A stretch of DNA of 55,152 nucleotides from an uncultured bacterium (GTDB lineage Bacteria; Cyanobacteriota; Vampirovibrionia; Gastranaerophilales; Gastranaerophilaceae). The position numbers were made by a program, and so were the translations under genes. Where the stretch lies: positions 1-55,152 of the forward strand of contig CAMOPX010000011.1 of assembly GCA_946622415.1 (NCBI GenBank), in the 5' to 3' direction. A model generated the notes under the pieces. That model was given only the letters and a program-made list of their open reading frames with translations, searched no databases and was not told where the DNA came from. Below are positions 4,058 through 47,160 of the stretch, piece by piece; position 1 is the first letter of the stretch; each line of letters begins with the position of its first letter.

Positions 4058-4459
4058 ATGATAATTTTAAATTGTGTCAGTTTAATAATTTTAATAATTT
4101 TTGAGATAGTTTTAACGGTATTTTGTGTTAAAAAACTCATAAATGCAGATACTAACGTTCAAAAACTAAGCCAAAATCTTTCCGTTGCAGGAAGCACTAT
4201 ATTAGCAATTTTTTATAAAACAAAAGACATTGTTTTTAAAACAAACAAATTTGTTTCAATTTTGACAAGCAAAAAACTTTTAAGAATCCATACTATTTTA
4301 AAATACACTTTAAATATAGCAGAAATTTATTTTCTTATAAGAACACTTGATTTTTCAAAAGGCTCAAAAAAATTGACCTTCAAAAATATAAAAAAGCTTC
4401 TTTTTACGGAAGCCGCAAAAAAACTCATTTTCAAAGCAATAAATTTTGTTTGCCATTGA
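4058..4459 (+). CDS. Hypothetical protein with N-terminal membrane anchor
   Basis: A 133-residue protein of no recognised family. Residues 4-25 are strongly hydrophobic and predict one membrane anchor. The rest is Lys/Phe/Leu-rich and helical, with a second moderately hydrophobic stretch (TLNIAEIYFLI). The last ten codons, the stop codon and the next few bases (4427-4469) are repeated almost perfectly at 4762-4803, on the far side of structured element A. The start was chosen at the first ATG after the promoter; there is no clear ribosome-binding site. Confidence 0.6.
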   Translation: MIILNCVSLIILIIFEIVLTVFCVKKLINADTNVQKLSQNLSVAGSTILAIFYKTKDIVFKTNKFVSILTSKKLLRIHTILKYTLNIAEIYFLIRTLDFSKGSKKLTFKNIKKLLFTEAAKKLIFKAINFVCH

Positions 4460-4803
4460 TGTTTTTTAAGGTTGAGCAAGACTTGTTTCAAAAGTACAAT
4501 AAATAAAAATAAGATATGGTTGAGTATTTTTTAGCTGCCGAAGCTTACTCAAATCTCGCGCATTAACGTAGCGAATATTTGTTGAATCTTCGTTAAAAAA
4601 CTGTGTTGTTTGAGGGATGAAATTCCGAGTTCACAGTTTTAGAAAATTAAAAGATTACAAACAAATAATGAGCGAAGTGAAGCGCGGGGAGTTTCTTTCC
4701 TGCCCCTTTCTTTTGTCGAAAAGAAAGGGGCAAATACTATAAATCAAAATATAGTTACTTTATTTTCAAAGCAATAAATTTTGTTTGTCATTGATGTTTT
4801 TAA
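4427..4803. mobile_element. Structured repeat element A (family 3) bounded by 43-bp direct repeats of the upstream gene end
   Basis: Left direct repeat 4427-4469 and right direct repeat 4762-4803 differ by one base plus one T in a T-run, and both include the stop region of the 133-residue gene. The roughly 290-bp interior has an outer pairing CGCGC (about 4556) with GCGCG (about 4682). Inside it are a stem AAACTGTG/CACAGTTT enclosing TGTTTGAG and CGAGTT around a GGGAT-GAA-ATTCC hairpin, the conserved word GGGGAGTTTCTTTCCTG, and a terminal hairpin GCCCCTTTCTTTT...AAAAGAAAGGGGC. There is no open reading frame. Element B at 46.9 kb has the same plan with compensated stems. It covers most of the gene-free stretch 4460-4928. 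Confidence 0.75.
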
Positions 4804-4813
4804 ACAGAATTTT

Positions 4814-5341
4814 GGCAGACTAAAATCTACCCTGTTATTACTCTCATCACATCTTACTTGACACTTAATTTTTATATTCTACACTTGTAAAAAGGTTGTG
4901 TATTTTTATTTAAAAGGAGAATATATTAATGTCTGTAGCTATATCACCTATATCACCTGTATCACATCATCTAAATGTCAGCCATAGTGATAATTTTTAT
5001 GAAAATGCAGCCAGACTTCAAGGTTACCCTGAAAATCAAGCTTTTATTAATCCGGCCTATGTTGAATCCGACGAATTTTACGATAAAGGCGTACGTGAAA
5101 TTACGATGATAGATGGTAAAAAATTTTATTTTGAGTCCAGCGTTGCAGAGCAAGCAAGTTCGCAATATGGGAAAGCACCTGAAAACGAAGAACCTGATTC
5201 AGATATTATGTATATGCAACTCGGCTCGAACGGTTGGACTATTACTACAGTCAATGGACAAGAAAGACAGACCGATAAGAATGAGGTAGGAGAAATTATT
5301 AATTATACCGCATAAGTGTGTAGAGTAAATTTTAGTCTGCC
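4814..5341. mobile_element. 528-bp cassette with inverted-repeat ends
   Basis: GGCAGACTAAAAT at 4814-4826 recurs inverted as ATTTTAGTCTGCC at 5329-5341. Allowing one mismatch, the match extends to 17 bases inward. The ends enclose exactly one gene (4929-5315) and about 100 bp of leader. The right end stops one base before the hisS stop codon. No transposase is encoded and no clear target duplication is seen, so this is either a non-autonomous MITE-like cassette or a paired regulatory or terminator site. Confidence 0.45.
4929..5315 (+). CDS. Hypothetical protein in an inverted-repeat cassette
   Basis: A 128-residue acidic soluble protein, not recognised. It begins with a low-complexity SPISPVSHH segment and has no signal peptide or membrane segment. 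A C-terminal region (MYMQLGSNGWTITTVNG) reads like beta strands. AAAAGGAGAATATATTAATG provides a strong ribosome-binding site. A TTGACA box occurs at 4858-4863 without a well-spaced -10. The gene sits alone between the inverted repeats at 4814 and 5341, so it may be the passenger of a small cassette. Confidence 0.6.
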   Translation: MSVAISPISPVSHHLNVSHSDNFYENAARLQGYPENQAFINPAYVESDEFYDKGVREITMIDGKKFYFESSVAEQASSQYGKAPENEEPDSDIMYMQLGSNGWTITTVNGQERQTDKNEVGEIINYTA

Positions 5342-5342
5342 A

Positions 5343-6575
5343 TTACAGCATTTCAAAATCAAAAACCTTATTTTGTTCTGATGTATTAAGGTCTTTTACA
5401 CTGTAAAATCCCTGATTTATTTCATCTTCACCGAGAATTAAGGCTTTATTTGCCACTTTTGAAGCTTTTTCAAGTTGTTTTGTAAATTTTTTATTTTGAG
5501 TGCAATAGTCGGCTGTTTTTCCGTTTCTTCTTAATTTTTGAGCCAGCTTCATGGCTTCAATTGTATTATTAGATACAATATAATAATCTATTTTTTGGGG
5601 CTCGATTTTTTCCATTAAAGAAGCCAACCTTTCAACCCCCATTGCAAAACCGATAGCAGGTGTAGGTTGTCCACCCAGCATTTCCACTAAACCATCATAC
5701 CTTCCGCCGCCACAAACAGCACTTTGAGAACCTAATAAATTGGATTTTATTTCAAAAACAGTACGGTTATAATAGTCCAACCCTCTAACAAGAAGTTTGT
5801 TTTTAGAATATTTTATATTCAAATTATCAAGATAAGAGGTCAGTTTATCAAAGTGGTCTTTACATTCTTCGCAAACATAATCTCCAAAGATAACTTTCTT
5901 CACTTCTTCTTTTTCAAATATTTTTTGGCAGTTTTCGTTTTTGCAATCCAAAATACGGAGCGGATTTTTTTCAAATCTCATTTTACAATCGTCACAAAGC
6001 TCTTCCAAATAAGGTTCAAGCACTTTTTTAATAGAAGTTTTATAATCATCTTTGCAGTTTTTACAGCCGAGTGAATTTAATTCAACCTCTAAATCATTAA
6101 GTCCCAAGGATTTTAACAATTCAACCGCCGTCATAATAACTTCTGCATCTGCCGCAGCATCTGCCACCCCGAACATTTCCACCCCTACCTGATGAAATTG
6201 GCGCTGTCTGCCCGCTTGCGGCCTCTCATATCTGAACATGGGCCCAAAGTACCAGAATTTTTGCGGAGGAGATTGTCTTTGTATATTGTGCTCAATATAA
6301 CTTCTGACCACACCTGCCGTATTTTCGGGTCTTAAAGTAATTGAGGTTTCATCCTTGTTTATTCCACCGACACAAAACGTGTACATTTCTTTGTTTACTA
6401 TATCGGTTGAATCTCCGACACCTCTGTTAAACAGTTCCGTTGCTTCAAAAATCGGGGTTTGGATTCTGTTAAAACATGCGTTTTGAAACACTTCTTTTGC
6501 CGAATTTTCAATTTTTTGCCATATTAAAATTTCGTCACCCAATATATCTTTTGTACCACGTTGCGCTTTTATCAT
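5343..6575 (-). CDS. hisS: Histidyl-tRNA synthetase
   Basis: Class II aminoacyl-tRNA synthetase that charges tRNA-His. The start at 6575 (MIKAQRGTKDILGDE) is preferred over an upstream ATG at 6608 because AAGGAAAA lies just before it and homologues begin there; the protein is then 410 residues. Visible are the motif 1 region (RIQTPIFE), motif 2 with GRQRQFHQVGVEMFG, the HisA motif LVRGLDYYNRTVFE, GGGRYDGL and motif 3 AIGFAMGVERL. The C-terminal anticodon-binding domain starts at DYYIVSNN. An inserted cysteine-containing segment (CKNCK, CDDC, CKNENCQ, CEEC) resembles a zinc site found in some bacterial HisRS. The gene is monocistronic and divergent from sua5. Confidence 0.96.
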   Translation of the reverse strand: MIKAQRGTKDILGDEILIWQKIENSAKEVFQNACFNRIQTPIFEATELFNRGVGDSTDIVNKEMYTFCVGGINKDETSITLRPENTAGVVRSYIEHNIQRQSPPQKFWYFGPMFRYERPQAGRQRQFHQVGVEMFGVADAAADAEVIMTAVELLKSLGLNDLEVELNSLGCKNCKDDYKTSIKKVLEPYLEELCDDCKMRFEKNPLRILDCKNENCQKIFEKEEVKKVIFGDYVCEECKDHFDKLTSYLDNLNIKYSKNKLLVRGLDYYNRTVFEIKSNLLGSQSAVCGGGRYDGLVEMLGGQPTPAIGFAMGVERLASLMEKIEPQKIDYYIVSNNTIEAMKLAQKLRRNGKTADYCTQNKKFTKQLEKASKVANKALILGEDEINQGFYSVKDLNTSEQNKVFDFEML

Positions 6576-6658
6576 AATTTTTCCTTGTTTTTGCTTCTTT
6601 ATATTCATTTTACTATAAACAAATTCGTTATATAATAAAATACAAAAAAGGAAGCTTT

Positions 6659-7213
6659 ATGAATCTGAAAAAAGGTGAGGTTCTGGCGTTTTCGACAGAT
6701 ACTGTATGGGGCTTCGGGTGTTTGCCCGAAGATGAAGAAGCTGTTCAAAATATTTATAAAATTAAAAATCGCGATTCAAAAAAACCGCTTATTTTAATGA
6801 GCAATAGTTTTGAAGCGTTAAAAAAATATGTAAAATCCATTCCAAATTACGCTTATGAATTAATCGAAAAATATTTACCGGGCGGGCTCACTCTTATTTT
6901 TGAAAAATCTCCTTTGTGTCCCGATTTTGTTACATCATATCAAAATACAGTCGGCATAAGGATTCCCGATAGCGAGGATTTTAGAATACTAACGGAAAAT
7001 ATTAAAGGAAACGTTCTTGCAACAACCTCATGCAACGTTACAAACGAAGCCCCTGTCGAAAATTACATTCAGGCAAAAGAAAAATTTGAAAATTCGGCAA
7101 CAATAATAAAACCGATAAATGACATCATTCACGAAAATAAACCCTCAACCGTGATTTTATGCAACAAAGAAGGATATAAGATTTTAAGACAAGGAAGTGT
7201 GAAATTAGTTTAA
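6659..7213 (+). CDS. tsaC: L-threonylcarbamoyladenylate synthase (Sua5/YciO/YrdC family)
   Basis: It makes threonylcarbamoyl-AMP from threonine, bicarbonate and ATP, the activated donor for t6A at position 37 of ANN-decoding tRNAs. The 184 residues are a bare YrdC domain without the C-terminal Sua5 domain. Family motifs are the N-terminal TDTVWGFGC, YKIKNRDSKKPL near residue 40, LPGGLTLIFE and NTVGIRIPD. A ribosome-binding site AAGGAAG precedes the ATG. The stop codon overlaps the ATG of mtaB (TAATG), coupling t6A synthesis to its methylthiolation. Confidence 0.93.
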   Translation: MNLKKGEVLAFSTDTVWGFGCLPEDEEAVQNIYKIKNRDSKKPLILMSNSFEALKKYVKSIPNYAYELIEKYLPGGLTLIFEKSPLCPDFVTSYQNTVGIRIPDSEDFRILTENIKGNVLATTSCNVTNEAPVENYIQAKEKFENSATIIKPINDIIHENKPSTVILCNKEGYKILRQGSVKLV

Positions 7214-8481
7214 TGAAAAAATTTTATATAAAATCCTTAGGCTGTAAACAAAACCAACTCGAAGGTCAAATAATTAAAGATAAATTGTTATTATCAGGTT
7301 TTAAATCTGCAAAAAACATTAAAGATGCGGATATTTATATCTTGAATTCCTGTACCGTCACATCTCACGCTGATTCGCAAACAAATTATTTATTAAACCA
7401 TGCAAAAAAAGAAAGCCCGAATATTAAAACAATTTTAACGGGCTGTGTTGCGCAAACCATAAAAGAACATAAAAATTTTAACTATTCTATAGCTGATTTA
7501 ATCTTAGGTAACAGCGAAAAAATGAATATTGATAAATACATAAAAGAACTCTTTGATAAAAATGAAAAGGTTTTTGTTCAAAATATTTTTGATATAAAAG
7601 AATTTGAAAACGAGTTTTTATTATCGCCTGATTCCACCCGTGTCAGCATAAAAATACAAGACGGCTGCAACAACAGATGCAGCTACTGCATTATCCCTTA
7701 TGCGAGAGGAAATTCCCGCTCTAATTCAATCGAAAACATAATAAAACAAATTGAAACGGTAATTGAAAAAGGGATAAAAGAAATAGTATTAACAGGTATC
7801 CACATCGGTCAATGGGGAATGGAATTTAATAAAACTTTAATTGATTTATTGATTGAAATCGAAAAAACAAAAATCCCAAGATACCGCCTTGGTTCTTTAT
7901 ATGTAAATGAACTTGATGACAATACTCTCGATTTTTTAAAAAACTCTAAAAAATTCTGTCCGCATTTTCACTTATCGCTTCAATCCATGTGCGATAAAAC
8001 CTTAAAAAACATGAACAGATGTTATACTGTTCAAGAAGCCTTAAATGTTATCGATAAAATTCATAAAAATTTCAACCTTGCATACATAGGGTCAGATATT
8101 ATCGTAGGTTTCCCTTATGAAACGGATGAAGATTTTAATATTACATATAATAATCTGAAACGAGCAAAACTATCCTCAATCCACTGTTTTCCTTGTTCAA
8201 AAAGAGAAAATACCCCTGCATATTCAATGCCTCAAGTACAGGATAAAATTAAAACCAAAAGATGTAAAGAAATAATGGAATTATCAAAAATTTTACACAA
8301 AGAATTTTTAGATAAAAATAAAAATACCCTACAAGAAATTTTAATTGAAAGAAAATCACCAAAAACGGGTATGTATAGCGCAATTACAAGAAACTACATA
8401 AAAATTCACTTTAAAAGCGACGATAATAATTTAAGACATAATATAAAAACTGTTAATTTAGCAGACTTTGAATTAGAATAA
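7213..8481 (+). CDS. mtaB: t6A-tRNA 2-methylthiotransferase MtaB
   Basis: A radical SAM methylthiotransferase that converts t6A37 into ms2t6A37. Order of domains: N-terminal UPF0004 domain with three cysteines ([26 protein letters not shown]), then the radical SAM core with [15 protein letters not shown] near residue 150, then a TRAM-like C-terminus ([13 protein letters not shown]). The 422 residues fit MtaB better than MiaB, as do GCKQNQ and the missing long insert. It overlaps the upstream YrdC gene, so both steps of the same tRNA modification are co-translated. Confidence 0.94.
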
Positions 8482-8510
8482 ATTTATACAAAACAAAAAA
8501 GGAATTAAAA

Positions 8511-9605
8511 ATGAAAAATATAGCTGTTTTAATGGGTGACGGTGTCGGAGTAGAAATACTTGAACAAACAATAAGAGTATTGGATAAAGTTTCTTCAATA
8601 TACAAATTGGATTTTAAATACCACTATACTCCCATAGGCGGAAACGCTTATGAAGAAACAGGAACACCGCTTCCAAATAAAACAATAGAAATAGCAAAAG
8701 CTTCAGATGCTGTTTTATTGGGCGCTGTCGGAGATTGGAAATACGATATTCTTCCGCCCGAATTAAGACCTGAAAAGGCGCTTTTAGGTATAAGGAAAAA
8801 ATTAAATTTATTTGCAAATCTTAGACCCGTTAAGGTTTTTGATGAATTGTTACATGCTTCACCTCTAAGACCTGAAATCGCACAAAATACAGACATAATG
8901 ATAGTAAGAGAACTTACAGGCGACGTCTATTTCGGTGAACCAAGAGGAATAGAAAGAAAAACCACACTCGATGGCAGAGAAATAAAAGTCGGTTTTAACA
9001 ACATGATTTATGATGAAGACGAAATAAGAAGAATTGCCCATGTTGCTTTTAAATCAGCACAAAAACGCAAAAAAAGAGTTTGCTGTGTTGATAAAGCAAA
9101 CGTTCTTGATGTTTCACGTTTGTTTAGAGAAATAACCGCAGAAGTTGCAAAAGAATATTCTGATGTTGAACTGTCATATATGTATGTTGATAATTGTGCA
9201 ATGCAACTTGTTCTCAACCCGAAACAGTTTGATGTAATATTAACAGGCAACATCTTTGGCGATATTTTATCCGATGAAGCCTCTACAATTTGCGGTTCTT
9301 TGGGAATGCTTCCATCAGCATCATTATCCGACGGAAACACTCCGTTTTTATATGAACCAATCCACGGCTCTGCGCCCGATTTAAAAGGTAAAAACGTAGT
9401 TAACCCAATAGCAACAATATTGTCTGCCGCTATGATGTTAAATTATTCTTTTGACAACAAATTGGCTGCCGATAATATCACAAGAGCAATCAAAGAAACT
9501 CTTAAAGAAGGCTACAGAACGAGAGATATTTTCAATAAAGAAAACGGGGATGAACTCGTTACCACTTCAAAAATTACGGATGTAATTATTGATAAGATAA
9601 GATAA
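8511..9605 (+). CDS. leuB: 3-isopropylmalate dehydrogenase
   Basis: An NAD-dependent oxidative decarboxylase of the leucine pathway, 364 residues. Recognisable blocks: [18 protein letters not shown] at the start, [92 protein letters not shown] and the NAD-site signature [13 protein letters not shown]. The [12 protein letters not shown] and GLR-type substrate loop favour LeuB over isocitrate or tartrate dehydrogenase. It follows mtaB by 29 bp with its own AAAGGAATT site. No leuACD genes are in view. Confidence 0.95.
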
Positions 9606-9692
9606 TCAAAATACTGCTATCAAAATTTATCTGTTAGCTATAAAATAATAAAGCGCACGTTTAAATTTTGTGTTAGAATTATTATAAAACAG

Positions 9693-9711
9693 TATAATTT
9701 TTGAGGAAGAT
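9693..9711 (+). promoter_or_regulatory. thrS -10 box and short leader
   Basis: TATAAT at 9693-9698 lies 14 bases before the thrS ATG at 9712, with GAGGAAG as ribosome-binding site. The leader is too short to hold a T-box or an operator-mimic stem, so none of the classical ThrRS autoregulation devices is present. Confidence 0.45.
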
Positions 9712-11735: not shown

Positions 11736-11760
11736 AAAAAACTGCCTATTTCTAGGCAGA
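11736..11760 (-). terminator. Terminator of RNase P RNA
   Basis: Read on the minus strand, CTGCCTAGAAATAGGCAG is followed by TTTTTT immediately after the mature 3' end of the RNase P RNA. Confidence 0.85.
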
Positions 11761-12526
11761 AAGTCGGTTATAAGCCGAGTTCCGTATTAAGATGATTATC
11801 TGTCTAATGCGTTTTGTCTTGCAATTTTCAAAAATGAAAACGGAAATAGCACCTTTTGCAAATTCAAACTTGCAGCCTGTCGGGGTTTACCTGTCCTGAT
11901 ATTTCACAATATCAGCCGGTGGGCTCTTACCCCACCGTTGCACAATCGCTGGCACGAAACACAACATTTTGTTTTGTTCCGCACAGCATTCTTCTTTCGC
12001 CTGTGGGTATTTCGGTAGGCTAAGCTAAGACGCTTAGCACCTCAATTATCCTACGGCGAATTTCTAATGTCTGCACAAAACAAAATTGAACATTTTGTTT
12101 TGTTCCGCACAGCATTCTTCTTTTCTGTGGCACTTTCCTCGCCCTCACGGACACTTAGATTTCCTAAGCAAACTGCTATTTTGGCTGCCCGGACTTTCCT
12201 CATACCCTTTATCGAACGAGCCTAGCCGGACTCGGCTTGGCAAGTGAAGATAAAGGCATAGGTGCAATCGCACTTCGCAATGCTTTAGCTGTTGCAACTT
12301 TAGTTGCATACAGATAAAGTAGTCCTGCGGACACTTCTGCCCTCGTCATCGCTCGTTAAGTGCTTGCGCACTAAACTCGCTCGACTCTCGACAGTACGGC
12401 TACGTGCTGTCGGCAAAGCTCATCGCTTTCCCGTTCGCACTTCGCACACTTCTGCCCTCGTCATCGCTCGTTAAGTGCTTGCGCACTAAACTCGCTCGAC
12501 TCGGGTACGCAATCATCAGCCGACTT
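11761..12526 (-). ncRNA. rnpB: RNase P RNA, type A, greatly expanded
   Basis: This is the catalytic RNA that matures tRNA 5' ends. On the minus strand the universal blocks are all present: P4 5' strand GAGGAAAGTCCGGGC (about 12205), GTGCCACAGAAA, GGTGGGGTAAGAGCCCACC, GGTAAACCCC, AGACAGATAATCATC and the 3' GGCTTATAACCGACTT. P1 pairs AAGTCGG with CCGACTT, and P2 pairs GATGATT with AATCATC. The RNA is 766 nt against about 377 in E. coli. Extra length lies in P3, which is about 290 nt and is still closed by TACCC/GGGTA. It holds two identical 57-nt copies of a repeat also found at 27.4 kb. A 35-nt internal duplication accounts for more (11963-11997 and 12089-12123). It covers the gene-free stretch 11674-12568. 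Confidence 0.95.
12331..12502 (-). repeat. Two family-1 repeat copies inside P3 of the RNase P RNA
   Basis: The 57-nt sequences at 12331-12387 and 12446-12502 are identical and in the same orientation, 115 nt apart. On the minus strand they read GAGTCGAGCGAG, TTTA, stem GTGC-GCAA-GCAC, TTAACGAGCGATGACGAGG, GCAGAAGTGT. The first copy continues with CGAACGGG, stem AAAGC-GATGA-GCTTT and GCCGACAG. The same order of conserved words and variable stems appears in the 27.4-28.2 kb array. Confidence 0.8.
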
Positions 12527-27016: not shown

Positions 27017-27385
27017 TTGAAAAAAGTTTTACTTATTTTTACGTTATTATTGGGAATGATATTAACATGCAGTCAAAAGATAGGAGCAAACATGACAACA
27101 AATTATAGTCAAGTTAGAGCAGAACATATACTCGTTAAAACGGAAGCCGAAGCAAACGATATTAAAACACAAATCGAAGAAGGAAAAATTTCATTTGAAG
27201 ATGCCGCAAAAGAATATTCAAAATGCCCATCAAAAGCAAATGGCGGTGACTTAGGTTATTTTGGCAGAGGCATGATGGTAAAAGAATTTGAAACAGCTTC
27301 TTTTGAAGGTGAAGTAGGAAAAGTATCCAACCCTGTTCAAACACAATTCGGCTGGCACTTGATTAAAGTTCTGGATAAAAAGTAA
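27017..27385 (+). CDS. Secreted parvulin-type peptidyl-prolyl isomerase
   Basis: A 122-residue single-domain PpiC-like isomerase that assists folding of exported proteins. The start is TTG at 27017, with AAAGGAGAAA ahead. Residues 1-24 form a signal sequence (MKKVLLIFTLLLGMILTC). The cysteine after ILT is not in a good lipobox. The parvulin domain runs from RAEHILVKTEAEA through FEDAAKEYSKCPSKANGGDLGYFGRG to FETASFEGEVGKVSNPVQTQFGWHLIKVL. The TAA stop (27383-27385) forms part of the AATCCCGAATC junction that recurs at every unit boundary of the repeat array behind it. Confidence 0.92.
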   Translation: MKKVLLIFTLLLGMILTCSQKIGANMTTNYSQVRAEHILVKTEAEANDIKTQIEEGKISFEDAAKEYSKCPSKANGGDLGYFGRGMMVKEFETASFEGEVGKVSNPVQTQFGWHLIKVLDKK

Positions 27386-28171
27386 TCCCGAATCGAACGA
27401 ATTTAGTGCGTCAGCACTTAATGAGTGAAGATGAGGGCAAAAGTGTATGAAGCTCGTGACGTCAGACTGGTGAAGTCTGACGGACAGAGCGGAATCGTAC
27501 TCAGGCGACGTGGAAATTTTCAATTTCCACAGGAGTAATCCCGAATCAAGTGAGCTTTAGTTTGCGATAGCAAACTTAGCGAACGCAGATGAGAGCACCG
27601 GGTGTGTGAAGCCCGAACGGGTTTGCGTTGAGCAAAGCCGACAGGGCGCAACCTTACCAAACCGCCGTTTCAAAACTTGTTTTGACAGGCGGAAATCCCG
27701 AATCAAGAGAGCTTTAGTTTGCGATAGCAAACTTAGCGAACGCAGATGAGAGCACCGGGTGTGTGAAGCCCGAACGGGTTTGCGTTGAGCAAAGCCGACA
27801 GGGCGCAACCTTACCAAACCGCCGTTTCAAAACTTGTTTTGACAGGCGGAAATCCCAAATCAAGAGAGCGGATTTTGACTAGCACGTAACGAAGTGAGTG
27901 CGTCTGTTTGAGAAAACTTATGAAACGAATGAAAATCTTTGATTTTCGGGAGTGAAATGCTAAGTTTTCGAGTTGTCAAAATCCAAGACAGCTTTAATTT
28001 GCGATAGCAAACTTAGCGAACGCAGATGAGAGCATAGCTGTGCAGAATAAACGGCAAAACGTTGAGTTTTGACGTTTATGTAGTCCTTAGATAGCCGCCG
28101 TTGCGAAGTGAAGCGATAGCGAAACGAGCGAAGAAATCTTCGATTTCACAGGCGGAAATCCCGAATCAAGC
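27381..28171. repeat. Array of family-1 structured repeats behind the ppiC-like gene
   Basis: Four consecutive units begin with AATCCC(G/A)AATC at 27385, 27536, 27692 and 27850, and a final partial header sits at 28158. Units 2 and 3 are nearly identical; unit 1 is diverged; unit 4 is enlarged by a nested family-2 element. Each unit contains TTTA-stem-TTA(A/G)(C/T)GA, GATGAGAGCA, a stem with TGA loop, (C/G)GACAG and a 3' hairpin CCGCC...ACAGGCGG. Stems differ in sequence but keep pairing. The first junction AGTAATCCCGAATC includes the ppiC stop codon. No protein is convincingly encoded across this 840-bp gene-free stretch. Confidence 0.85.
27870..27984. repeat. Family-2 element nested in array unit 4
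   Basis: GGATTTTGAC at 27870-27879 pairs with GTCAAAATCC at 27975-27984. Inside are AGCAC.../GTGC, AAAACTTA/TAAGTTTT and GAAAATC-TTT-GATTTTC hairpins and the internal motif TGTTTGAG/CGAGTT. It interrupts a family-1 unit just after GAGAGC and before TTTAATTTGC. Confidence 0.75.
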
Positions 28172-34010: not shown

Positions 34011-34093
34011 ACTGTTGTTCTAATGTTTAGTTGGAGCAAGCGGTTTTAACATGATACAGTTGAACCGAGAATAATGAAAATTTAATAGATTAT

Positions 34094-34167
34094 GCCCTGG
34101 TAGCTCAGCTGGATAGAGCAACTGCCTTCTAAGCAGTAGGTCATGCGTTCGAATCGCATCCAGGGTA
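34094..34167 (+). tRNA. tRNA-Arg (anticodon UCU)
   Basis: The complete cloverleaf is visible. The acceptor GCCCTGG pairs with CCAGGGT (G-U at the first pair), the D arm is GCTC/GAGC, the anticodon arm is ACTGC-CTTCTAA-GCAGT with anticodon TCT, and the T arm is ATGCG-TTCGAAT-CGCAT. The discriminator is A; CCA is not encoded. It reads AGA codons. Its T arm and acceptor 3' half are copied again at 34287-34310 and 34630-34648. Confidence 0.95.
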
Positions 34168-34175
34168 AATTATTT

Positions 34176-34206
34176 AAAAGACCTACATAAAGTAGGTCTT
34201 TTTTTA
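34176..34206 (+). terminator. tRNA-Arg terminator
   Basis: AGACCTAC-ATAAA-GTAGGTCT followed by eight T. A compensated copy sits at 34654-34683, and an unrelated terminator (AGAGGTTA/TAACCTCT) follows the middle tRNA fragment. Confidence 0.85.
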
Positions 34207-34385
34207 TACCCTGAAGGATTCTCAGCATCCCCCATTAGCACATTGGGAACGTATCATTATATTTATATCATAATAATGGGGACCCTGTTCGAATCGCATC
34301 CAGGGTAAATAAAAAGAGGTTAGATAAAACTAACCTCTTTTTATTTATTTTGTATAGATGAGAACGCTGTTTTATACGTTCGAGC

Positions 34386-34624
34386 GGATTTTGTGTAGTG
34401 TGTAACGAAGTGAACACGAAGTAGCAAAAAACAAATGAAGCGGCAGCGATAGCGAAGCGAAATACTGTTTTTTGTGAAACAAAATCCAAGAGAGCGGATT
34501 TTGACTAGGGCGGAACAGGGCTTTAGCCCGTCGTGAGCCCGTCTGTTTGAGAAAACTTATGGAATGAAGATTTTGCAATAGCAAAATCGAAATGGAATAC
34601 TAAGTTTTCGAGTTGTCAAAATCC
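34386..34624. repeat. Two tandem family-2 elements
   Basis: Copy a: GGATTTTGT (34386) to ACAAAATCC (34487). Copy b: GGATTTTGAC (34496) to GTCAAAATCC (34624). Both are preceded by GAGC and followed by AAGA. The second stem is GCAAAAAACA/TGTTTTTTGT in copy a and AGAAAACTTA/TAAGTTTTC in copy b; the first hairpin in copy b is extended (GGGCTTTAGCCC). Pairing is kept while sequence changes. Confidence 0.75.
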
Positions 34625-34725
34625 AAGACAATCGCATCCAGGGTAAATTATTTAAAAGACCTGCATAGAGCAGGTCTTTTTTATACCCTGAAGGATTCTC
34701 AGCATCCCTCATTAGCACAACAAAA

Positions 34726-35094
34726 CTAATCTTTCTTGCATTTTGGCTCATCAATATCATCACATTTACTCAATATTTCTCGTGCAAGACTATTGAATTT
34801 CGCAGTTTCTTCTCCTTGTTGTTTGAATAAATTTGCAGCTTTACAAGCTTCATCCAAAGTGGAATAGTTACAGCTGCATCTTGTTCCGTCGCTAACGTAA
34901 TAATATGGAGTACCGCCATCTTTATCATTACCTAAATAAATATTATTATGGTTTCCTTTTTGTTCTTCAACTGCTTGCCCGATTTTTTTAAGTTCTTCTA
35001 TGCTTCCTTCGGTTTGATGAATCGCGTAATATGCAGCTCTTTTTGTTATATTTCCAAAGTTAACATTAATTGGTTTAATACCCGATACATTCAT
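34726..35094 (-). CDS. Hypothetical protein with N-terminal NFG tag
   Basis: A 122-residue soluble protein, family unknown. The N-terminus MNVSGIKPINVNFGNITKR carries the short tag shared by several unrelated proteins in this window. The body is helical and charged, with a central beta segment YYYVSDGTRCSCNYSTLDEA and six cysteines (CSC, CKAA, CDD, CKK). There is no signal peptide. It lies just beyond the tRNA-Arg island. Confidence 0.65.
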   Translation of the reverse strand: MNVSGIKPINVNFGNITKRAAYYAIHQTEGSIEELKKIGQAVEEQKGNHNNIYLGNDKDGGTPYYYVSDGTRCSCNYSTLDEACKAANLFKQQGEETAKFNSLAREILSKCDDIDEPKCKKD

Positions 35095-40121: not shown

Positions 40122-40164
40122 TAAAAATCCTGCGTTGGCATTTTTTTGTGTTAATATTTTTATT

Positions 40165-40545
40165 ATGAAGAATTTTATCAGATGTATTTTTCTTTTATTT
40201 TTCTTTTTTGGTGTGCTTTCGGCAAACGCAAATAATTTTGCCGGTTATTCCGTTATTGAAAATGCAAACATAAAAACAAAATATATTACAAACAAGCAGA
40301 ATGAATCACTGTTAGAAATTTCAAAAGAACAAAATAATATCTTTATTAAAAATGAGAATAATGAAGAAGTATCAGTTTTTAATAATCAAAAAAATTCTTC
40401 TTCAAGCAAATGCCCGATAAATATATATAACAATGATTTATTTATTAATAATCTTTTTTCCTATAAGCTAAACGATTTCTGTTGTCTAATTTCATATAAT
40501 ATTTCTCCCATACTTAAATATTCGATTCAAAAAAGAGCACCATAA
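40165..40545 (+). CDS. Small secreted Asn/Lys-rich protein
   Basis: The start at 40165 (MKNFIRCIFLLFFFFGVLSANA) gives a strong signal peptide; the upstream frame from 40135 merely lengthens it. The mature part of about 100 residues is Asn/Ile/Ser-rich with no motif. It is unrecognised. It lies divergently 40 bp from cstA, and a 47-codon membrane-protein gene follows. Confidence 0.55.
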   Translation: MKNFIRCIFLLFFFFGVLSANANNFAGYSVIENANIKTKYITNKQNESLLEISKEQNNIFIKNENNEEVSVFNNQKNSSSSKCPINIYNNDLFINNLFSYKLNDFCCLISYNISPILKYSIQKRAP

Positions 40546-40625
40546 AATTTTTCTTTTTTAATTTTTATTTATTTAAACTTCTTGAAATAAGAAGTTAGTT
40601 TTGCAATTTTAAAAAAGGGAAAATT

Positions 40626-40769
40626 ATGGAAAATAATATAGAAAAAAACATTCAAAAAGACCAAACCGAATACTGCAATAATTCCGAAAACACGGGTGCC
40701 TTAAAATCGGTTATCATCTCAGTTGTTATTATTCTTGCAATGTGGTTATTGTCACTTATTGTAGATTAA
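40626..40769 (+). CDS. Small single-span membrane protein (47 aa)
   Basis: ATG at 40626 is preceded by AAAAAAGGGAAAA. It encodes a polar N-terminus (MENNIEKNIQKDQTEYCNN) and one C-terminal membrane helix (KSVIISVVIILAMWLLSLIV) ending in Asp. A terminator follows directly. A real gene is likely, function unknown. Confidence 0.6.
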   Translation: MENNIEKNIQKDQTEYCNNSENTGALKSVIISVVIILAMWLLSLIVD

Positions 40770-40798
40770 AAGGGGGCAAAAGCCCTCTTTTAATTTTT
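40768..40798. terminator. Bidirectional terminator
   Basis: AAAAGGGGGC-AAA-AGCCCTCTTTTAATTTTT, shared by the 47-residue gene and the convergent tagged gene. Confidence 0.75.
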
Positions 40799-42257: not shown

Positions 42258-42430
42258 TTTAGCCCTCTCTACACTTTTTATATATTTAAAACAGCTAAAT
42301 ACGAATGTTTGCATATTTTTATTCATTATGTAAAGAATTGTAAAAAATAAACATTTTTTCCTAAAGTTTTATTGAAAGTGTGACGATATACATTATACAA
42401 GACAATAAAGCGAAAATAAGGAGAATGACA

Positions 42431-42823
42431 ATGGAAATAGGTAAAGTTAAATTTGGTGAGTACTCAGTCGGAAACGGACAAGTAGGTTCAGGAAAAAAAG
42501 GCGAAGAAAAACAAGAAGTTCAAACCAATGCACAAATTCAAAGCGAAAAAGCAAAAACAGTAAAAGCAGAAGATGTTTATAATGCTTTAGGTGCACTTGG
42601 TACACAAAACATGGCATTTATTACAAAGAATGCCGGCGTGGGTGATGTAGAAGCAGCAACAAAACTACTGGGCGAAGAAAGAACAAGTGATATTGAAGCT
42701 ATGATGGCTGAATTTGAAAACGGAGTAAACGATATAGCAGACATTATTGATGATGAATTTGGCGATATCTTCTCCGAACCCGAAAAAAATGCTCTTGCAG
42801 CAAGAATATTTGCGAAAGAGTAA
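42431..42823 (+). CDS. Small acidic protein with KFG tag
   Basis: The ATG at 42431 is chosen because AAGGAG (42418-42423) is seven bases upstream, whereas the ATG at 42425 is only one base away. The protein has 130 residues, starts MEIGKVKFGEYSVGNGQVG, continues with a Lys/Gln/Glu-rich linker, and ends in an acidic helical part (ARIFAKE). It is not recognised. It is divergent from the larger tagged gene at 40797-42257, and the two share the tag style. Confidence 0.65.
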   Translation: MEIGKVKFGEYSVGNGQVGSGKKGEEKQEVQTNAQIQSEKAKTVKAEDVYNALGALGTQNMAFITKNAGVGDVEAATKLLGEERTSDIEAMMAEFENGVNDIADIIDDEFGDIFSEPEKNALAARIFAKE

Positions 42824-42863
42824 ATGAGAAGTTTCCTTATTCTCCTCTATTGTTTAATTTTAT

Positions 42864-42900
42864 CGCCGTTAAAGTTTAATACCTTAGCGGCTTTATTTTA
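42864..42900 (+). terminator. Putative terminator
   Basis: GCCGTTAAAG...CCTTAGCGGC followed by TTTATTTTAATT, downstream of the 130-residue gene. Pairing is imperfect. Confidence 0.45.
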
Positions 42901-42932
42901 ATTAAAACAAAATAAGGAAAAGTTTTTAGATT

Positions 42933-43979
42933 CTACTTTTCTATATTCTTCTTTAATTCCAAAATTTTTTCACACGAAGCATCAATATTTTCTATATCAA
43001 TTTCGCCTGATTTAACCTGTTTTTTTATACTTTTATGAATCTTCTTTACTATGTTTCTGTCATAGAATTTTATGTTATTGGAAAATATTAATACATTAAC
43101 ACCTGAATTTATTGAGAGTCTGAGTGTTTCATCAAGAGTGTAATTATTTTTTATTGCGCCCATATCCATATCATCACTGATTATTACGCCCTTAAAACCG
43201 ACATCGTTCTTTAAATAATCAATTGTTTTTTTTGATAAACTGGCAGGGTGTTTGTTGTCGAATTTTGAATTGAAAATATGAGACACCATAACAGTATTTA
43301 ATTTGTCATAATTTTTTAAATCATAATAAGGTTCAAGTTCTTCTTTTTTAAACGTGTTTGTTGCATCAGCAAAAGATAAATGTGTATCAACATCAATTGA
43401 ACCGTGTCCGGGGAAATGTTTTATTGATGTAATTATATTTTTTTTATTGTGTTCATCTATAAATATTTTTGCATATTTTGAAACAATTTTCGGATTATCG
43501 CTATAGCTTCTTTTTTTAATTGAAATTATTGATTTTTTATTTAATTCCAAATCAACAACCGGAGCAAAATTAGTATTAAATTTTAATTCTTTTAAAGAAT
43601 CTGCCATTTTTTCGTATTCTTTTTGAGCTTCATCTTCTTTCAATTGGGAAGTTTCTTTTGCGGATAAATTAGAAAAATAATCGTGTCTTTGTATCATTCC
43701 GCCTTCATTATCTATTGCAATAAAGGGCGTTACCTTATTCAAAGACAAAAATTTTTCATTCATCTTTATTAAATCTTCTTTTGATTTTAAATTTTTATTA
43801 AATAAAATAACTCCCGAAATTTCCCCTTTTTGAATTTGTTTTTGAATTTTTCTTGTATTATTAATGTTATCGCCTTTAAAACCGACAATAATCATTTGGC
43901 CTATTTTTTCATCCAACGTTAAAGCAAAAGAATTTAACGTCATCAATAAAACAAAAGCTCCGAATAATCTTTTTATCAT
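42933..43979 (-). CDS. nagZ: Glycoside hydrolase family 3 beta-N-acetylhexosaminidase (NagZ-like), exported
   Basis: A 348-residue GH3 enzyme, probably recycling peptidoglycan by releasing GlcNAc. Signal peptide MIKRLFGAFVLLMTLNSFA. Conserved blocks: DEKIGQMIIVGFKG, FIAIDNEGGMIQRHDY, NFAPVVDLELN, SIKHFPGHGSIDVDTHLSFAD (catalytic His-containing loop, about 184-204) and IISDDMDMGAI (nucleophile Asp, about 268). It overlaps the upstream YihY gene by four bases; together with nrnA they form a three-gene coupled operon. Confidence 0.92.
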   Translation of the reverse strand: MIKRLFGAFVLLMTLNSFALTLDEKIGQMIIVGFKGDNINNTRKIQKQIQKGEISGVILFNKNLKSKEDLIKMNEKFLSLNKVTPFIAIDNEGGMIQRHDYFSNLSAKETSQLKEDEAQKEYEKMADSLKELKFNTNFAPVVDLELNKKSIISIKKRSYSDNPKIVSKYAKIFIDEHNKKNIITSIKHFPGHGSIDVDTHLSFADATNTFKKEELEPYYDLKNYDKLNTVMVSHIFNSKFDNKHPASLSKKTIDYLKNDVGFKGVIISDDMDMGAIKNNYTLDETLRLSINSGVNVLIFSNNIKFYDRNIVKKIHKSIKKQVKSGEIDIENIDASCEKILELKKNIEK

Positions 43980-44851
43980 ATATTTTTCGCTTTCTTTTTA
44001 TCCAATAGAGTTAATTTTCTGAGTGTCTGATTATTTACTTGTCCGCCTATCAATAAAATTATGGAAGAATAATATAACCAAATCATTAGTATGGCAAAAG
44101 CACCGATTGTTCCGTAGACTCTGTTGTATGTGCCTAAAGCATTAACATACAAAGAAAATCCCCAAGAACCCAATAACCAAAATATGCAGAAAAATAACGC
44201 ACCGGGGATAATGCTTTTTCTTTTTGAACTGAAATCACGAGCAGGAAGTACGTAATAGTTTATTGTTGCAAGCAAAAATAACATCAAAAATGCCAAAGGC
44301 CATCTTGTAATCAAAATTGTATCCGTAATTACCTTTGAAATTTGAAAATAAGTACCTATAAAACTAAGTAAAACCTTTCCTAAAATGATTAAGTTTATAC
44401 TTATGAACAAAAAGAATGTGTTTACAAACACCATCAGCATAGCAAGACAACGCACCTTAATAAAGCTTCTGTTTTCCATAACGTTGTTTGCTCTATTTAA
44501 TCCTTTTATTATCACGGCAATTGCATTGGAAGTTAAAAACAAAGTAACAAAAAATCCGACAAGCGCCATTGTGGTACCGCTTTTGAATATAACAACCTCG
44601 TTTAAAACAAGATTTATCATATCAATAACCTGCTCGGGCGCAATTGCGGATAAACCCGTTATAATTTTATTGATAAAAAAAGTTTTTCCAAGCCATCCAA
44701 AAACAGCCATCAAAAAAAGCATAAAAGGAAAAATCCCGAGTGCTGTCATATATGCCATTTCTCCCGCAGCGTTGGCATAATCATCTCTTATTATGCTGTG
44801 TATGAGGTTTTTCAGATATTCTTTTAATATACAAAAAATTTTTCTTATCAT
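43976..44851 (-). CDS. YihY/BrkB-family membrane protein
   Basis: A 291-residue integral membrane protein with six predicted spans. Family features: DDYANAAGEMAYMTALGIFPFMLFLMA near the N-terminus (the A-x-x-A-Y-x-x-L-x-x-x-P pattern), RWPLAFLMLFLLATINYYVLPARD, PGALFFCIFWLLGSWGFSLYV and GTIGAFAILMIWLYYSSIILLIGG. The exact function is uncertain (once called RNase BN; virulence factor BrkB). It overlaps nagZ and nrnA by four bases on each side. Confidence 0.92.
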   Translation of the reverse strand: MIRKIFCILKEYLKNLIHSIIRDDYANAAGEMAYMTALGIFPFMLFLMAVFGWLGKTFFINKIITGLSAIAPEQVIDMINLVLNEVVIFKSGTTMALVGFFVTLFLTSNAIAVIIKGLNRANNVMENRSFIKVRCLAMLMVFVNTFFLFISINLIILGKVLLSFIGTYFQISKVITDTILITRWPLAFLMLFLLATINYYVLPARDFSSKRKSIIPGALFFCIFWLLGSWGFSLYVNALGTYNRVYGTIGAFAILMIWLYYSSIILLIGGQVNNQTLRKLTLLDKKKAKNI

Positions 44852-45810
44852 ATCAGTTTTTTTATTTCATTCAAAAGAAGCTCAATTGCGGCAGGCATTT
44901 TATCTTTAATTGTACAACCTGCGGCACGCTTGTGTCCTCCGCCGTTGAATTTATCCGTGATTATTGTGGCATCTATTTCTTTTGTTCTAATTGAAACTTT
45001 TATCGAATTGTCTTTTTCTTTCAAAACAAAAGCCGCTTCTACTCCCGCTATAGACCTTAATGTTTCGGCTATTCCTTCCGTATATTCATCTTTGGCACTA
45101 AATTTTTCTATAAGTTCTTTTGTAACTTGAGCGTATGCAACTTTATTATTAAAACAGAATTGTGCATTTGAAATTATGTTGTTTTGGAAAAGAATGAGAT
45201 TTTTGGGTTTATTTGTATAACATAAATCCGCAATTTCAGAGGTATTTATGCCTGTTGAAGACAGTTCTGATGCAATATTGAATGTATGAGGTGTTGTACT
45301 TTCATACTTAAAACATCCGGTATCCGTTAGTATTGCAGCATAAAGACCTGTTGCCATTTCGGGCGTTATATTAATTTCCGAAGCTTTAAAAAAATCAAAA
45401 AGAACTTCGCCGACAGATGAAATTCCGCCTCTAATGTAATTTATTTTAGCATAACCTTTATTTGTTTTATGATGGTCAAATGCGATTGTATTTTTGCAAT
45501 TATCAAAAATTTCTCTTGCTTTTCCTATCATTCTGTCTATTGATGCTATATCAACCGCAATCACTAAATCATAGTTGTTTTCGACATTTGAAAAGTTCTT
45601 TGCACTGTTAATGTGAGGCAAAAAACTGTATGTATTAGGGAAATTAAAATTGTCCTCAATTTGAATTAATATGTCGGATTTTATATTTATATCATTTAAA
45701 AAACTCTTTAATGAAGATGCGCTGCCCAATGTGTCGCCGTCGGGATTAATGTGTGTTATGATTAAAACATTAGAAGAGTTTTTTATTGTATTTAAAATTT
45801 CTCTTTCCAT
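44848..45810 (-). CDS. nrnA: DHH/DHHA1 phosphoesterase (NrnA-like oligoribonuclease/pAp phosphatase)
   Basis: A 320-residue enzyme that degrades nanoRNA and dephosphorylates pAp. The start at 45810 (MEREILNTIKNS) is preferred over a TTG six codons earlier. Metal-binding motifs are ITHINPDGDTLGSASSL (about 20-36), VIAVDIASIDRM, AFDHHKTNKGYAKINYI with the DHH triad (about 112), and ILTDTGCFKYESTTP. The C-terminal DHHA1 RNA-binding GGGHKRAAGC (about 297) is complete. First gene of the nrnA-yihY-nagZ operon; divergent from the exchanger gene with only 36 bp between. Confidence 0.93.
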   Translation of the reverse strand: MEREILNTIKNSSNVLIITHINPDGDTLGSASSLKSFLNDINIKSDILIQIEDNFNFPNTYSFLPHINSAKNFSNVENNYDLVIAVDIASIDRMIGKAREIFDNCKNTIAFDHHKTNKGYAKINYIRGGISSVGEVLFDFFKASEINITPEMATGLYAAILTDTGCFKYESTTPHTFNIASELSSTGINTSEIADLCYTNKPKNLILFQNNIISNAQFCFNNKVAYAQVTKELIEKFSAKDEYTEGIAETLRSIAGVEAAFVLKEKDNSIKVSIRTKEIDATIITDKFNGGGHKRAAGCTIKDKMPAAIELLLNEIKKLI

Positions 45811-45846
45811 TTGTAAATAGAATAACAAAAAGTCAGTGAAAAATAA

Positions 45847-46857
45847 ATGTTTTTTTTGATGAACGGAATTTTAGTTTTAATATATCTTTTAGGAATTATT
45901 TTTGCCTGCGTATTATTCACAAATGCAATTGAAAGTTTAGGTTCAAAATTAAAGCTCTCAAATAGCGCCACAGGCGGAATCCTCGCCGTAATAGGAACGA
46001 CACTGCCCGAAACTATTGTTCCTATAATTGCAATTTTATCTTCATTTCTTTTAAATAAACCTGCAGGATTAAATATTGCGCAGGGCGCTATCATAGGCTC
46101 ACCTTTTATGCTGTCTGTTTTTGCCATGTCGCTTCTTGGTATTTGTCTTGTCTTTTTAAAACGCAAAACCCTGAATATTGACAACAATATGGTATTCAGA
46201 TTTTATAAATATTTTTTGATAACTTATTCAATCGGAATTTTAGCTTCTTTTATTCATAAATTTGAATTTAAGCTTATTGTTTCTTTGTTTCTTGTTATAA
46301 GTTATGTATTTTTTGTTAAAAGAACTCTCGCAAAAGCAAAAGATGATTTTATTCAAGAAGAAACCGAAGAATTATTTTTTAAAAAAATATTAAAAGCAAA
46401 ATCCGAAACAATTTGTTTAATTCTTTTTCAAATTTTAATTTCTCTTGTTTTTCTGGTTATATTTTCACATCTTTTTGTACATAAAATTGCATTTATTTCA
46501 GAAATCTTAAATCTTAATCCCACGATTTTGAGCCTTATTATCACACCTTTTGCAACCGAATTACCCGAATGTATAAACAGTATAATCTGGATAAAAGCCA
46601 AAAAAGACGATTTGGCCGTTTCAAATATTCTTGGCGCAACTGTTTTTCAGGCGGTAATTCCGATGTCAATAGGAATTATTTTTACGCCATGGATTTTGCC
46701 TGATTTTATTCTTTTAAATTCTTTTGTTGTGGTTTTTTATTCTTTATTTGTTGTATTGACTTTATTGATAACAAAAAAAATTCGTCTTTTATCCCTTCTT
46801 TCGGGTTTGATTTTTTATTTTGGGTACATTGTTTTTATATTATTGCATAGTTTGTAA
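45847..46857 (+). CDS. Sodium/calcium exchanger family membrane protein
   Basis: A 336-residue CaCA-superfamily antiporter with about ten spans in two halves. The alpha-1 repeat contains SATGGILAVIGTTLPETIVPIIAI (about 39-62). The alpha-2 repeat contains NPTILSLIITPFATELPECINSIIWI (about 225-250). The acidic residue in each (TLPE and TELPE) is the ion ligand. It may export Ca2+ or related cations. Its last codons and stop are repeated at 47120-47160, beyond element B, as with the gene at 4.4 kb. Confidence 0.9.
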   Translation: MFFLMNGILVLIYLLGIIFACVLFTNAIESLGSKLKLSNSATGGILAVIGTTLPETIVPIIAILSSFLLNKPAGLNIAQGAIIGSPFMLSVFAMSLLGICLVFLKRKTLNIDNNMVFRFYKYFLITYSIGILASFIHKFEFKLIVSLFLVISYVFFVKRTLAKAKDDFIQEETEELFFKKILKAKSETICLILFQILISLVFLVIFSHLFVHKIAFISEILNLNPTILSLIITPFATELPECINSIIWIKAKKDDLAVSNILGATVFQAVIPMSIGIIFTPWILPDFILLNSFVVVFYSLFVVLTLLITKKIRLLSLLSGLIFYFGYIVFILLHSL

Positions 46858-47160
46858 AATTAAAATTCTTTAACAGACAAAAATAAAAACCTGTTTGCAT
46901 CGCATAATATTTATATATTCCCACGCATTAACGAAGCGAAGTATTTGTTATACAACGAAAATTTCGTTAAAAAATCGTATTGTCTGAGGGATGAAATCCC
47001 GAGTTTACGATTTTAGAAATTAAGTTGTAATAACAAAACAAACGGAGTAGAAGCGTGGGGAGTTTCTTTCCTGTTTGCTTTCTTTGACCGCAAAGAAAGC
47101 AAACGAAAATAAATAAAGATTTTTATATTGTTACATAGTTTGTAAAATTAAGATTCTTTA
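46832..47160. mobile_element. Structured repeat element B (family 3) bounded by 41-bp direct repeats of the exchanger gene end
   Basis: Bases 46832-46872, covering the end and stop codon of the exchanger gene, recur at 47120-47160 with three mismatches. The interior of about 247 bp has the element A plan: outer pairing CCCACGC/GCGTGGG, stem AAATCGTA/TACGATTT around TGTCTGAG...CGAGTT and a GGGAT-GAA-ATCCC hairpin, then GGGGAGTTTCTTTCCTG and terminal hairpin TTTGCTTTCTTTG...CAAAGAAAGCAAA. Compared with element A, paired positions change together in all three stems. It fills the gene-free stretch 46858-47176. Confidence 0.78.

Follow-up and report, generated by a model that had tools for sequence, protein, structure and literature searches.

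Small structured repeat families in a Candidatus Gastranaerophilales genome and the placement of one of them behind gene 3′ ends

Relation to described repeat elements

In E. coli, REPs protect the mRNA that lies upstream of them. REPs measure 20–40 bp and bear a GTAG or CGTC tag. Two reports describe them as multicopy non-coding hairpins that are probably transcribed and for the most part follow coding regions, between tandem or convergent genes (PMC3733652; PMC2817692); the CGTC group is reported without a dedicated transposase (PMC3733652). It is a long-standing question by what means REP-like repeats that lack a transposase of their own are moved, and what accounts for their abundance downstream of genes. 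The intergenic space of the Candidatus Gastranaerophilales metagenome-assembled genome studied here (MAG, 92% complete) contains small non-coding repeats that fold on themselves and belong to several distinct families, among them those designated A, B and C. Like the REP/BIME elements, family B is present in many copies, outside genes and downstream of them. It differs in its unit of about 100–120 nt, its CCCGA start, its head-to-tail arrangement and its covarying stems, a size and tag that are not those of REPs, and, from REP/BIME elements with a RAYT, in that no Y1 (RAYT) transposase is found in the 92%-complete MAG. We read B as REP-like in effect, with unusually exact and polar placement.

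Prokaryotic MITEs (QMITE2, Correia, RUP/BOX/SPRITE) are described as short, non-autonomous, structured, intergenic or 3′-untranslated, and sometimes nested, with a target duplication of 7–11 nt in QMITE2 (PMC10969869; PMC5896051). Families A and C look most similar to these elements, although the duplications flanking 3 of 13 A copies, at 41–51 bp, exceed those of QMITE2. Family B shows neither terminal inverted repeats nor, at ppiC, a duplicated target. Rickettsia palindromic elements are also reported inside RNA genes, tmRNA and RNase P RNA (PMC2229807), and B likewise occurs inside RNase P RNA. The Rickettsia elements are known, however, for in-frame insertion into proteins, whereas the catalogued B arrays, brief overlaps with called ORFs apart, are found after stop codons, between genes or in rnpB. 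Finally, group IIC introns are reported to insert at intrinsic transcriptional terminators (PMC4424553), and 9 of 52 B arrays start directly behind one. B is far smaller than these introns, this genome has no recognised reverse transcriptase, and the regions scanned contain no Rfam intron match, either at gathering level or in permissive scans.

Repeat families and gene-end duplications in the window

The window, that is, the whole stretch of 55,152 nucleotides analysed, contains four loci (Table 1) for which the original prediction proposed a single mobile system of small structured elements that enter at gene ends and rebuild them. The four loci are genuine, yet they are not one kind of event, and the prediction left out another repeat type in the same window (54–141, 50369–50430 and 54696–55048). 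The inserts are, as proposed, non-coding and structured, since all fold better than 200 shuffles (z-scores of −7.7 for A, −4.2 as DNA and −3.6 as RNA for B, and −3.6 for C). Membership of A, B or C in a known RNA family was rejected: the regions scanned give no Rfam match at gathering level, and permissive RNA-family scans return sub-gathering matches only (best E 0.011, to a microRNA model). B is a structured-RNA or structured-DNA family that Rfam does not recognise here.

Table 1. Features of the four repeat loci and of rnpB (positions within the 55,152-nucleotide window)
Feature	Position	Strand	Remark
133-aa gene	4058..4459	+	no Pfam or NCBIfam match; present across genus
43-bp repeat, left copy	4427..4469	+	holds last 33 bases of 133-aa gene, stop included
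Family A insert	4470..4761	+	A core about 4555-4735
43-bp repeat, right copy	4762..4804	+	41/43 identical to left copy
RNase P RNA	11756..12234	-	RF00010 match; long insertion between model positions 136 and 137
B unit in 5′ part of rnpB	12393..12505	-	
PpiC-type peptidyl-prolyl isomerase gene	27017..27385	+	native stop 27383-27385
Family B array	27386..28170	+	begins directly behind ppiC stop codon
B model matches in ppiC array	27387-27501, 27540-27658, 27697-27815, 27977-28091		
Family C element nested in B unit	27868..27989	+	
tRNA-Arg (tct)	34093..34168	+	
tRNA 3′ end, terminator and trailer repeat, left copy	34152..34242	+	
Second tRNA 3′ end	34287..34310	+	followed by a different terminator
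Two family C elements in tandem	34384..34629	+	boundary about 34493/34494
tRNA 3′ end repeat, right copy	34630..34719	+	third tRNA end, interrupted by C
Sodium/calcium exchanger family gene	45847..46857	+	
41-bp repeat, left copy	46832..46872	+	holds last 26 bases of exchanger gene, stop included
Family A insert	46873..47119	+	A core about 46920-47105
41-bp repeat, right copy	47120..47160	+	38/41 identical to left copy

Family A is a species-restricted cruciform; both A and C close as long palindromes. The expectation that all four loci duplicate the gene end holds at the two family A loci and fails at ppiC and tRNA-Arg. Within the four loci, locus-specific repeats of 41–43 bp that include the gene end flank only the two A copies, and these repeats score above every between-locus control. 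A decayed third case is found on contig C30. Among 38 repeat loci of the genome, five have a flanking duplication at an empirical p < 0.001, namely the three A loci and two tRNA loci, while two further loci at p 0.003–0.004 represent a low-complexity match and an element's own repeat. Because duplications are confined to few loci, gene-end duplication is not the rule, and its status as a common rule was rejected once the copies of this genome had been catalogued; the proposed placement at gene ends holds for B. Where it does accompany A, the duplication would most simply come from template back-jumping or from the filling-in of a staggered break. In the empty-site comparison, the sequence that follows the 133-aa gene is too divergent in the congeners, which also lack the exchanger at the corresponding place. 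Spread through viruses finds no support in exact-match scans, which prove little: one pattern each for A and B gives 0 matches in viral_contigs, and the A pattern gives 0 in genome_contigs, where this genome may be missing.

Of the direct repeats proposed, the 43-bp, 41-bp and approximately 90-bp pairs are confirmed, and the one at ppiC belongs to family B: AATCCCGAATCAAG is the element's own end and recurs at B units of other loci. The ppiC-like protein has a similar end whether or not a congener carries B; its stop codon is therefore native and simply kept, and no part of the gene is duplicated. The same comparison reveals no target duplication at this locus. Most of the 26 congeners have no B at the corresponding place, and many have a terminator hairpin there.

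The tRNA-Arg repeat had been ascribed to the inserted element. Three tRNA 3′ ends are present instead, the first two (34147–34170 and 34287–34310) identical at 24/24 positions and the third, from 34630, broken by two C elements with about 1 bp duplicated. The long repeat aligns as two adjoining blocks, 50/53 and 42/43 identical. It looks like a tRNA 3′-end scar older than its two C insertions. Judged by eye, C insertion with about 1 bp duplicated recurs in three contexts: at tRNA-Arg, at tRNA-Glu (contig C8) and within B units. Family C is thus an element in its own right, short and palindromic, whose copies can be nested within B or within the scars of tRNA 3′ ends. Both tRNA-Arg and tRNA-Glu have tRNA 3′ ends repeated together with terminators, which resemble the att scars of tRNA-integrating elements, including an identical core at tRNA-Arg. 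They differ in that C elements sit in the scars and that no integrase is recognised among the Pfam matches beside tRNA-Arg, where the adjacent ORF (34726–35094) has none.

Structure, placement and recurrence of family B

Family B is a non-autonomous, modular double-hairpin repeat that occurs as one unit or as a head-to-tail array. Its unit measures 101–120 nt in the alignment and up to 157 nt with spacer. The structure comprises 25 pairs, 16 of which have changes on both sides; 97.5% of the cells are paired, compared with 79.5% in shuffles, and the covariation score is 0.556, compared with 0.196 when shuffled and ≤0.088 when partners are slid. With one invariant G-U pair set aside, the counts of G-U cells (55) and A-C cells (41) are close to each other, an outcome that does not establish action as a transcript. 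The right end is ragged, and tail-first contacts may therefore be under-counted. The true 5′ part of rnpB probably lies upstream of the B insertion, judging from the P1 partner near 12520. We take the loops of rnpB to be P3 and P12, and P12 tolerates extra sequence.

Of the 59 B left ends, 7 are internal and 19 lie 0–4 nt behind the stop codon of an ORF of 60 codons or more, one of the 19 (L171) being internal on visual inspection. A further 9 follow a T-run, 3 share one rnpB flank and 21 are elsewhere. Array starts fall 0–4 nt behind a stop in 18 of 52 cases, with 1.05 expected (P 7e-18), and directly behind a T-run in 9, with 1.25 expected (P 4e-6), against per-position intergenic backgrounds of 2.0% and 2.4% that rest on a simple ORF caller; 21 of the 52 belong to neither class. 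The loci in this test are related, and the ppiC orthologues L251, L256 and L260 were included because they were known to carry B; with each gene counted once, 13 of 47 are stop-adjacent (P 7e-12). The peak is weaker when measured from BLAST boundaries than from model-based ends: 20 boundaries fall within −7..+3 nt and 13 in the following 26 nt (P 5.5e-4), and for the relatives alone P is 0.027.

All 14 scored stop-adjacent arrays are head-first, compared with 17 sense and 13 antisense across all tandem contexts. In the relatives, 31 of 89 B loci lie between convergent and 6 between divergent genes (P 4e-5). For all families of this genome together, the figures are 12 and 5 of 52 kept loci, which is not significant. 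The proposed bias toward gene 3′ ends is supported for small non-coding structured elements, and for family B it holds in an exact and polar form. In several cases the start codon of the next gene follows a stop-adjacent array after only 26–34 nt. The position just after a stop codon could be favoured by purifying selection where operons are tight.

Of 28 genomes in the genus, 22 carry B, this one included, as do 29 of 192 in the order, all within the same family. The relatives compared are congeners at 85–90% RicT identity, with no strain pair among them, and no movement of B is observed. Four of the seven stop-adjacent genes of this genome (the ppiC-like gene, rpsH, a flagellar rod gene and a response regulator) also have B behind the stop in other lineages, and the ppiC carriers sit in two separate parts of the tree. 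Conserved, essential operons are among those occupied; many other B loci are not common to congeners. Insertion reaches genes of narrow tolerance, those for ribosomal proteins, flagella and RNase P.

Explanations for the placement of family B

The reading that we consider probable is that B is a non-autonomous double-hairpin repeat delivered head-first to gene 3′ ends, with A and C as separate families. The CCCGA end would be placed directly behind a stop codon or the T-run of an intrinsic terminator; lying after the stop and ahead of the following ribosome-binding site or terminator, the element spares the protein. The moving form of B may be a folded single strand that a trans-acting factor recognises. 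Once in place, it could act as REP hairpins do, marking a cistron boundary, protecting the mRNA 3′ end or serving as an RNase substrate. Profile searches of the 92%-complete MAG return no reverse transcriptase (RVT_1; control matches in 3 of 14 genomes) and no Y1_Tnp (PF01797; control matches in 5 of 14 genomes). Both were accordingly rejected as the mover, and the result fits the earlier suggestion of a factor encoded elsewhere, or since lost. A stronger form of this reading, which we offer tentatively, is that B recognises gene 3′ ends as such, whether stop codon or terminator, in one fixed polarity and without duplicating its target; that it travels as a folded single strand, moved by machinery other than a reverse transcriptase or a Y1/HUH transposase; and that the same operon gaps, for example behind rpsH, are found repeatedly in different species.

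Random insertion followed by selection alone, with B copies surviving where they are least harmful behind operon stops or terminators, appears unlikely. It would account for the convergent-gene excess and for arrays in very short gaps, and REPs are reported with a similar broad bias (PMC3733652). However, it predicts neither the uniform head-first orientation, nor the peak at 0–4 nt, nor the same gene being hit in different lineages. Moreover, A and the other repeats of this genome, under equal selection, have gene-end-facing boundaries within −7..+3 nt of a stop in 1 of 35 cases, compared with 7 of 19 for B (Fisher P 0.0018). Family B, which starts within a few nucleotides of stops and terminators in one polarity and at differing gene sets in related genomes, makes the question of REP-like placement testable, since the orientations and distances expected from an insertion preference are not those expected from selection.

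It is still less likely, in our judgement, that B is an inherited 3′ trailer, an old regulatory hairpin of ppiC, rpsH and other genes that many species have lost and that gene conversion has kept uniform inside each genome. The occupation of the same genes in distant congeners, the strong covariation and the involvement of conserved, essential operons are as this explanation would have them. The scarcity of B at ppiC among congeners, many with a terminator hairpin in its place, and the many unshared loci speak against it, and the two separate groups of ppiC carriers would require many losses.

The single mobile system originally envisaged is very improbable and already contradicted for B and C: the gene-end duplications at three A loci are in its favour, but 33 of 38 repeat loci have none at p < 0.001, the ppiC repeat is part of B, the tRNA repeat predates C, and the families differ in range, A being matched in this genome only, of 58, and B extending across one family.

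Repeat families and their distribution

The metagenome-assembled genome (MAG) that contains the window (1.885 Mb, 50 contigs, 92% complete; the window is contig C11) was searched with the window repeats, and self-comparison of the returned loci defined three main families at the four loci, with smaller modules nested within them. Some copies sit at contig ends, so copies with both flanks represent only a sample.

Repeats of the window and their positions
Repeat	Coordinates	Description
Family A inserts	4470-4761, 46873-47119	nested cruciform with attached hairpin
Family B	27386-28170; also within rnpB	modular repeat, frequently tandem
Family C	27868-27989; two copies in 34384-34629	palindrome, shorter
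GGGATGCTGAAACAAGTTCAGCATGAC and relatives, outside A, B and C	54-141, 50369-50430, 54696-55048	palindromic; near the two ends of the contig and in the gap separating two genes

By eye, A, B and C have an architectural habit in common: each contains hairpins in which GA steps on the two strands break the stem, as TTTGAG...CGAGTT in A and C and as CCCGA...GAGGG in B. A further nested element, ACTTTATCTGTA...GCAACTAAAGTTGCAACAGCTAAAGC (about 55 bp), lies in rnpB, the RNase P RNA gene, at about 12267-12330, and is also found on contigs C39, C30 and C27, in two A copies and, in varied form, in a B array.

The closest relatives by RicT (85–90% identical in the closest 24 of 80 listed) are mostly named Candidatus Gastranaerophilales MAGs. 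Of 58 genomes searched, 27 of them same-genus, none but the own one matched family A. For B, DNA matches occur in 22 of the 28 genomes that represent the genus (the own one is counted), and a B covariance model matched 29 of 192 sampled genomes of the order, all in the own taxonomic family, in 11 of 45 genera; scores per genome were subject to a cap, which makes the covariance-model counts lower bounds. RVT_1 and Y1_Tnp had no match in the 92% complete own genome; the positive controls of both searches gave matches.

This kind of element is already known. REPs are found chiefly behind coding regions, and the CGTC type lacks a transposase of its own (PMC3733652); QMITE2 favours 3′ untranslated regions, and pneumococcal repeats nest in each other (PMC10969869, PMC5896051); Rickettsia RNase P RNA contains palindromic repeats (PMC2229807); and group IIC introns insert at terminators (PMC4424553). 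No description of a structured repeat abutting stop codons with fixed polarity was found in a small sample of the literature.

Placement and polarity of family B

The original prediction held that all four inserts duplicate gene 3′ ends. Gene-end placement proved real, and sharper for B than the first reading could show, but duplication was not general. Of the boundaries facing a gene end, the interval from -7 to +3 nt of the stop held 7 of 19 for own B, 13 of 104 for relatives' B and 1 of 35 for the rest of the own families. These 20 B boundaries compare with 13 over the 26 nt that follow (P 5.5e-4; relatives only, P 0.027). Model-defined B left ends (n = 59) are sharper than these boundaries: 19 lie 0–4 nt behind the stop of a long ORF and 9 behind a T-run of at least 6; a single rnpB flank accounts for 3, 7 are internal and 21 lie elsewhere. 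A-runs occur at 2. For 52 left ends, the intergenic background of these loci predicts about one in each of the stop and T-run classes. The P values for B starts overstate the case, as related loci were counted and three ppiC orthologues knowingly included. Counting each gene once reduces the 18 retained stop-adjacent starts to 13, and 13 of 47 still gives P 7e-12.

Orientation was scored for 66 B arrays. All 14 stop-adjacent arrays (7 own, 7 relative) are head-first, with the B left end (CCCGA) facing the gene end. Because the right end of B is harder to delimit, the position of tail-first contacts may be uncertain by some nucleotides. Of 17 arrays in convergent gaps, 14 begin at the nearer gene end, and tandem contexts overall are mixed (17 sense, 13 antisense). 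Relatives' arrays lie between convergent genes in 31 of 89 cases and between divergent genes in 6 (P 4e-5); the figures for all own families (12 and 5 of 52 kept) are not significant.

B was found at -30 to +60 nt of 66 gene ends, with six gene clusters drawn from more than one genome. It directly follows the stop of ribosomal protein S8 in the own genome and three relatives (G016, G021, G040), of a flagellar rod protein in the own genome and, in diverged form, in G005, and of a response regulator in the own genome and G003. B also abuts the stop of another flagellar rod gene of the own genome, of a CorA transporter gene (G017) and of nusG (G042). Of the seven own loci with B at the stop, four, ppiC among them, recur in another lineage.

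Comparison of the ppiC gene end covered 26 congeners besides the own genome; nearly all encode a C-terminal DKK or similar triplet. B directly follows the stop in the own genome, G001, G002 and G020; G004 has a degraded B piece, a contig end cuts the locus in G023, and at least 8 of the remaining congeners have, by eye, a terminator-like hairpin immediately after the stop. In a tree of RicT and the ppiC-like protein, the own genome falls outside the clade of the other carriers (support 0.999); G013, inside that clade, is without B at ppiC. Two gains and one loss would be the simpler reading of this tree, whose deep nodes are weak. The short repeat here, first taken for a gene-end duplication, is the start of B and recurs at B units of other loci.

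Gene-end duplications and tRNA ends

Duplication was confirmed at the two A loci of the window, where a 43-bp repeat includes the last 33 bases of the 133-residue gene and a 41-bp repeat the last 26 of the exchanger gene. In a copy-by-copy comparison of left with right flank, these loci scored 38 and 33.5 against a maximum of 17.5 for control comparisons with other copies' flanks; the remaining 11 of the 13 own copies complete enough for the test scored at best 14.5, barely over the controls' 95% point. With 2 mismatches in 43 positions at the first locus and 3 in 41 at the second, the gene-end copies are not an assembly echo. The exchanger gene (45847-46857) was not found within about 1.5 kb either side of ricT at 21 same-genus loci, a case of gene gain or rearrangement at that spot.

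A genome-wide catalogue, with boundaries tested at 38 repeat loci, argues against duplication as a rule. Five duplications reached p < 0.001: the two window loci, tRNA-Arg, tRNA-Glu on contig C8, and C30:9201-9234/9997-10030, a repeat identical at 27 of 34 positions that terminates with a gene's stop codon. A test aimed at gene ends placed 3 of 42 cases above every control, namely the two window loci and the C30 repeat; the next-best (p 0.0018) was a low-complexity match. Long gene-end duplications exist, all three at A loci, and the majority of A copies are without them.

Two more tRNA 3′ ends lie downstream of tRNA-Arg. One (34287-34310) continues into a terminator of different sequence; in the other, two C copies break the sequence at GTTCGA^ATCGC, after which it resumes at 34630 with the original terminator. 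A similar arrangement occurs at C8:53575-53904 (locus L068), where an extra tRNA-Glu 3′ end with its own terminator is split by C. In all three contexts, the others being an insertion inside B (AAGTGA^GCTTTAG) and that at tRNA-Glu (CGCTTG^GGGG), C duplicates by eye only about 1 base, so the 90-bp tRNA-Arg repeat was not made by this insert. The extra tRNA ends may be scars of integrative elements; beside tRNA-Arg no integrase was recognised, and the neighbouring ORF (34726-35094) has no Pfam match. Duplication is a secondary trait, seen in tRNA scars and in the smaller part of A insertions, and a single mobile system rebuilding gene ends is mostly wrong as an explanation.

Structure of family B and its occurrence in RNase P RNA

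Across 26 distinct units, B has 25 predicted pairs, 16 with changes on both sides. Pairing holds in 97.5% of cells, against 79.5% after shuffling, and the signal is lost when the partners are slid by one to three columns; in the outer stem, the facing GA steps between stems are invariant. An alignment of 136 distinct hits, model-fitted and hence biased towards the model, contains 166 G-U cells, 111 of them in one near-invariant pair, and the remaining 55 versus 41 A-C cells give no clear sign of selection on a transcript rather than folded DNA. Matched stems could also be maintained through hairpin repair by template switching.

The own genome and the relative G041 carry a B unit in what is probably the 5′ portion of RNase P RNA, and a long insertion between model positions 136 and 137, which we take to be P12. 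In G040 a B unit is preceded by the same flank. Part of the long G041 insertion (L241:1560-1615) aligns with positions 58-114 of the B model, its second half (E 8e-9), and weak B hits that occur singly in several other genera could be rnpB too; B modules could have derived from rnpB or have entered it. In the window, an identical 35-bp direct repeat (11963-11997 and 12089-12123) lies within and beside the long rnpB insertion.
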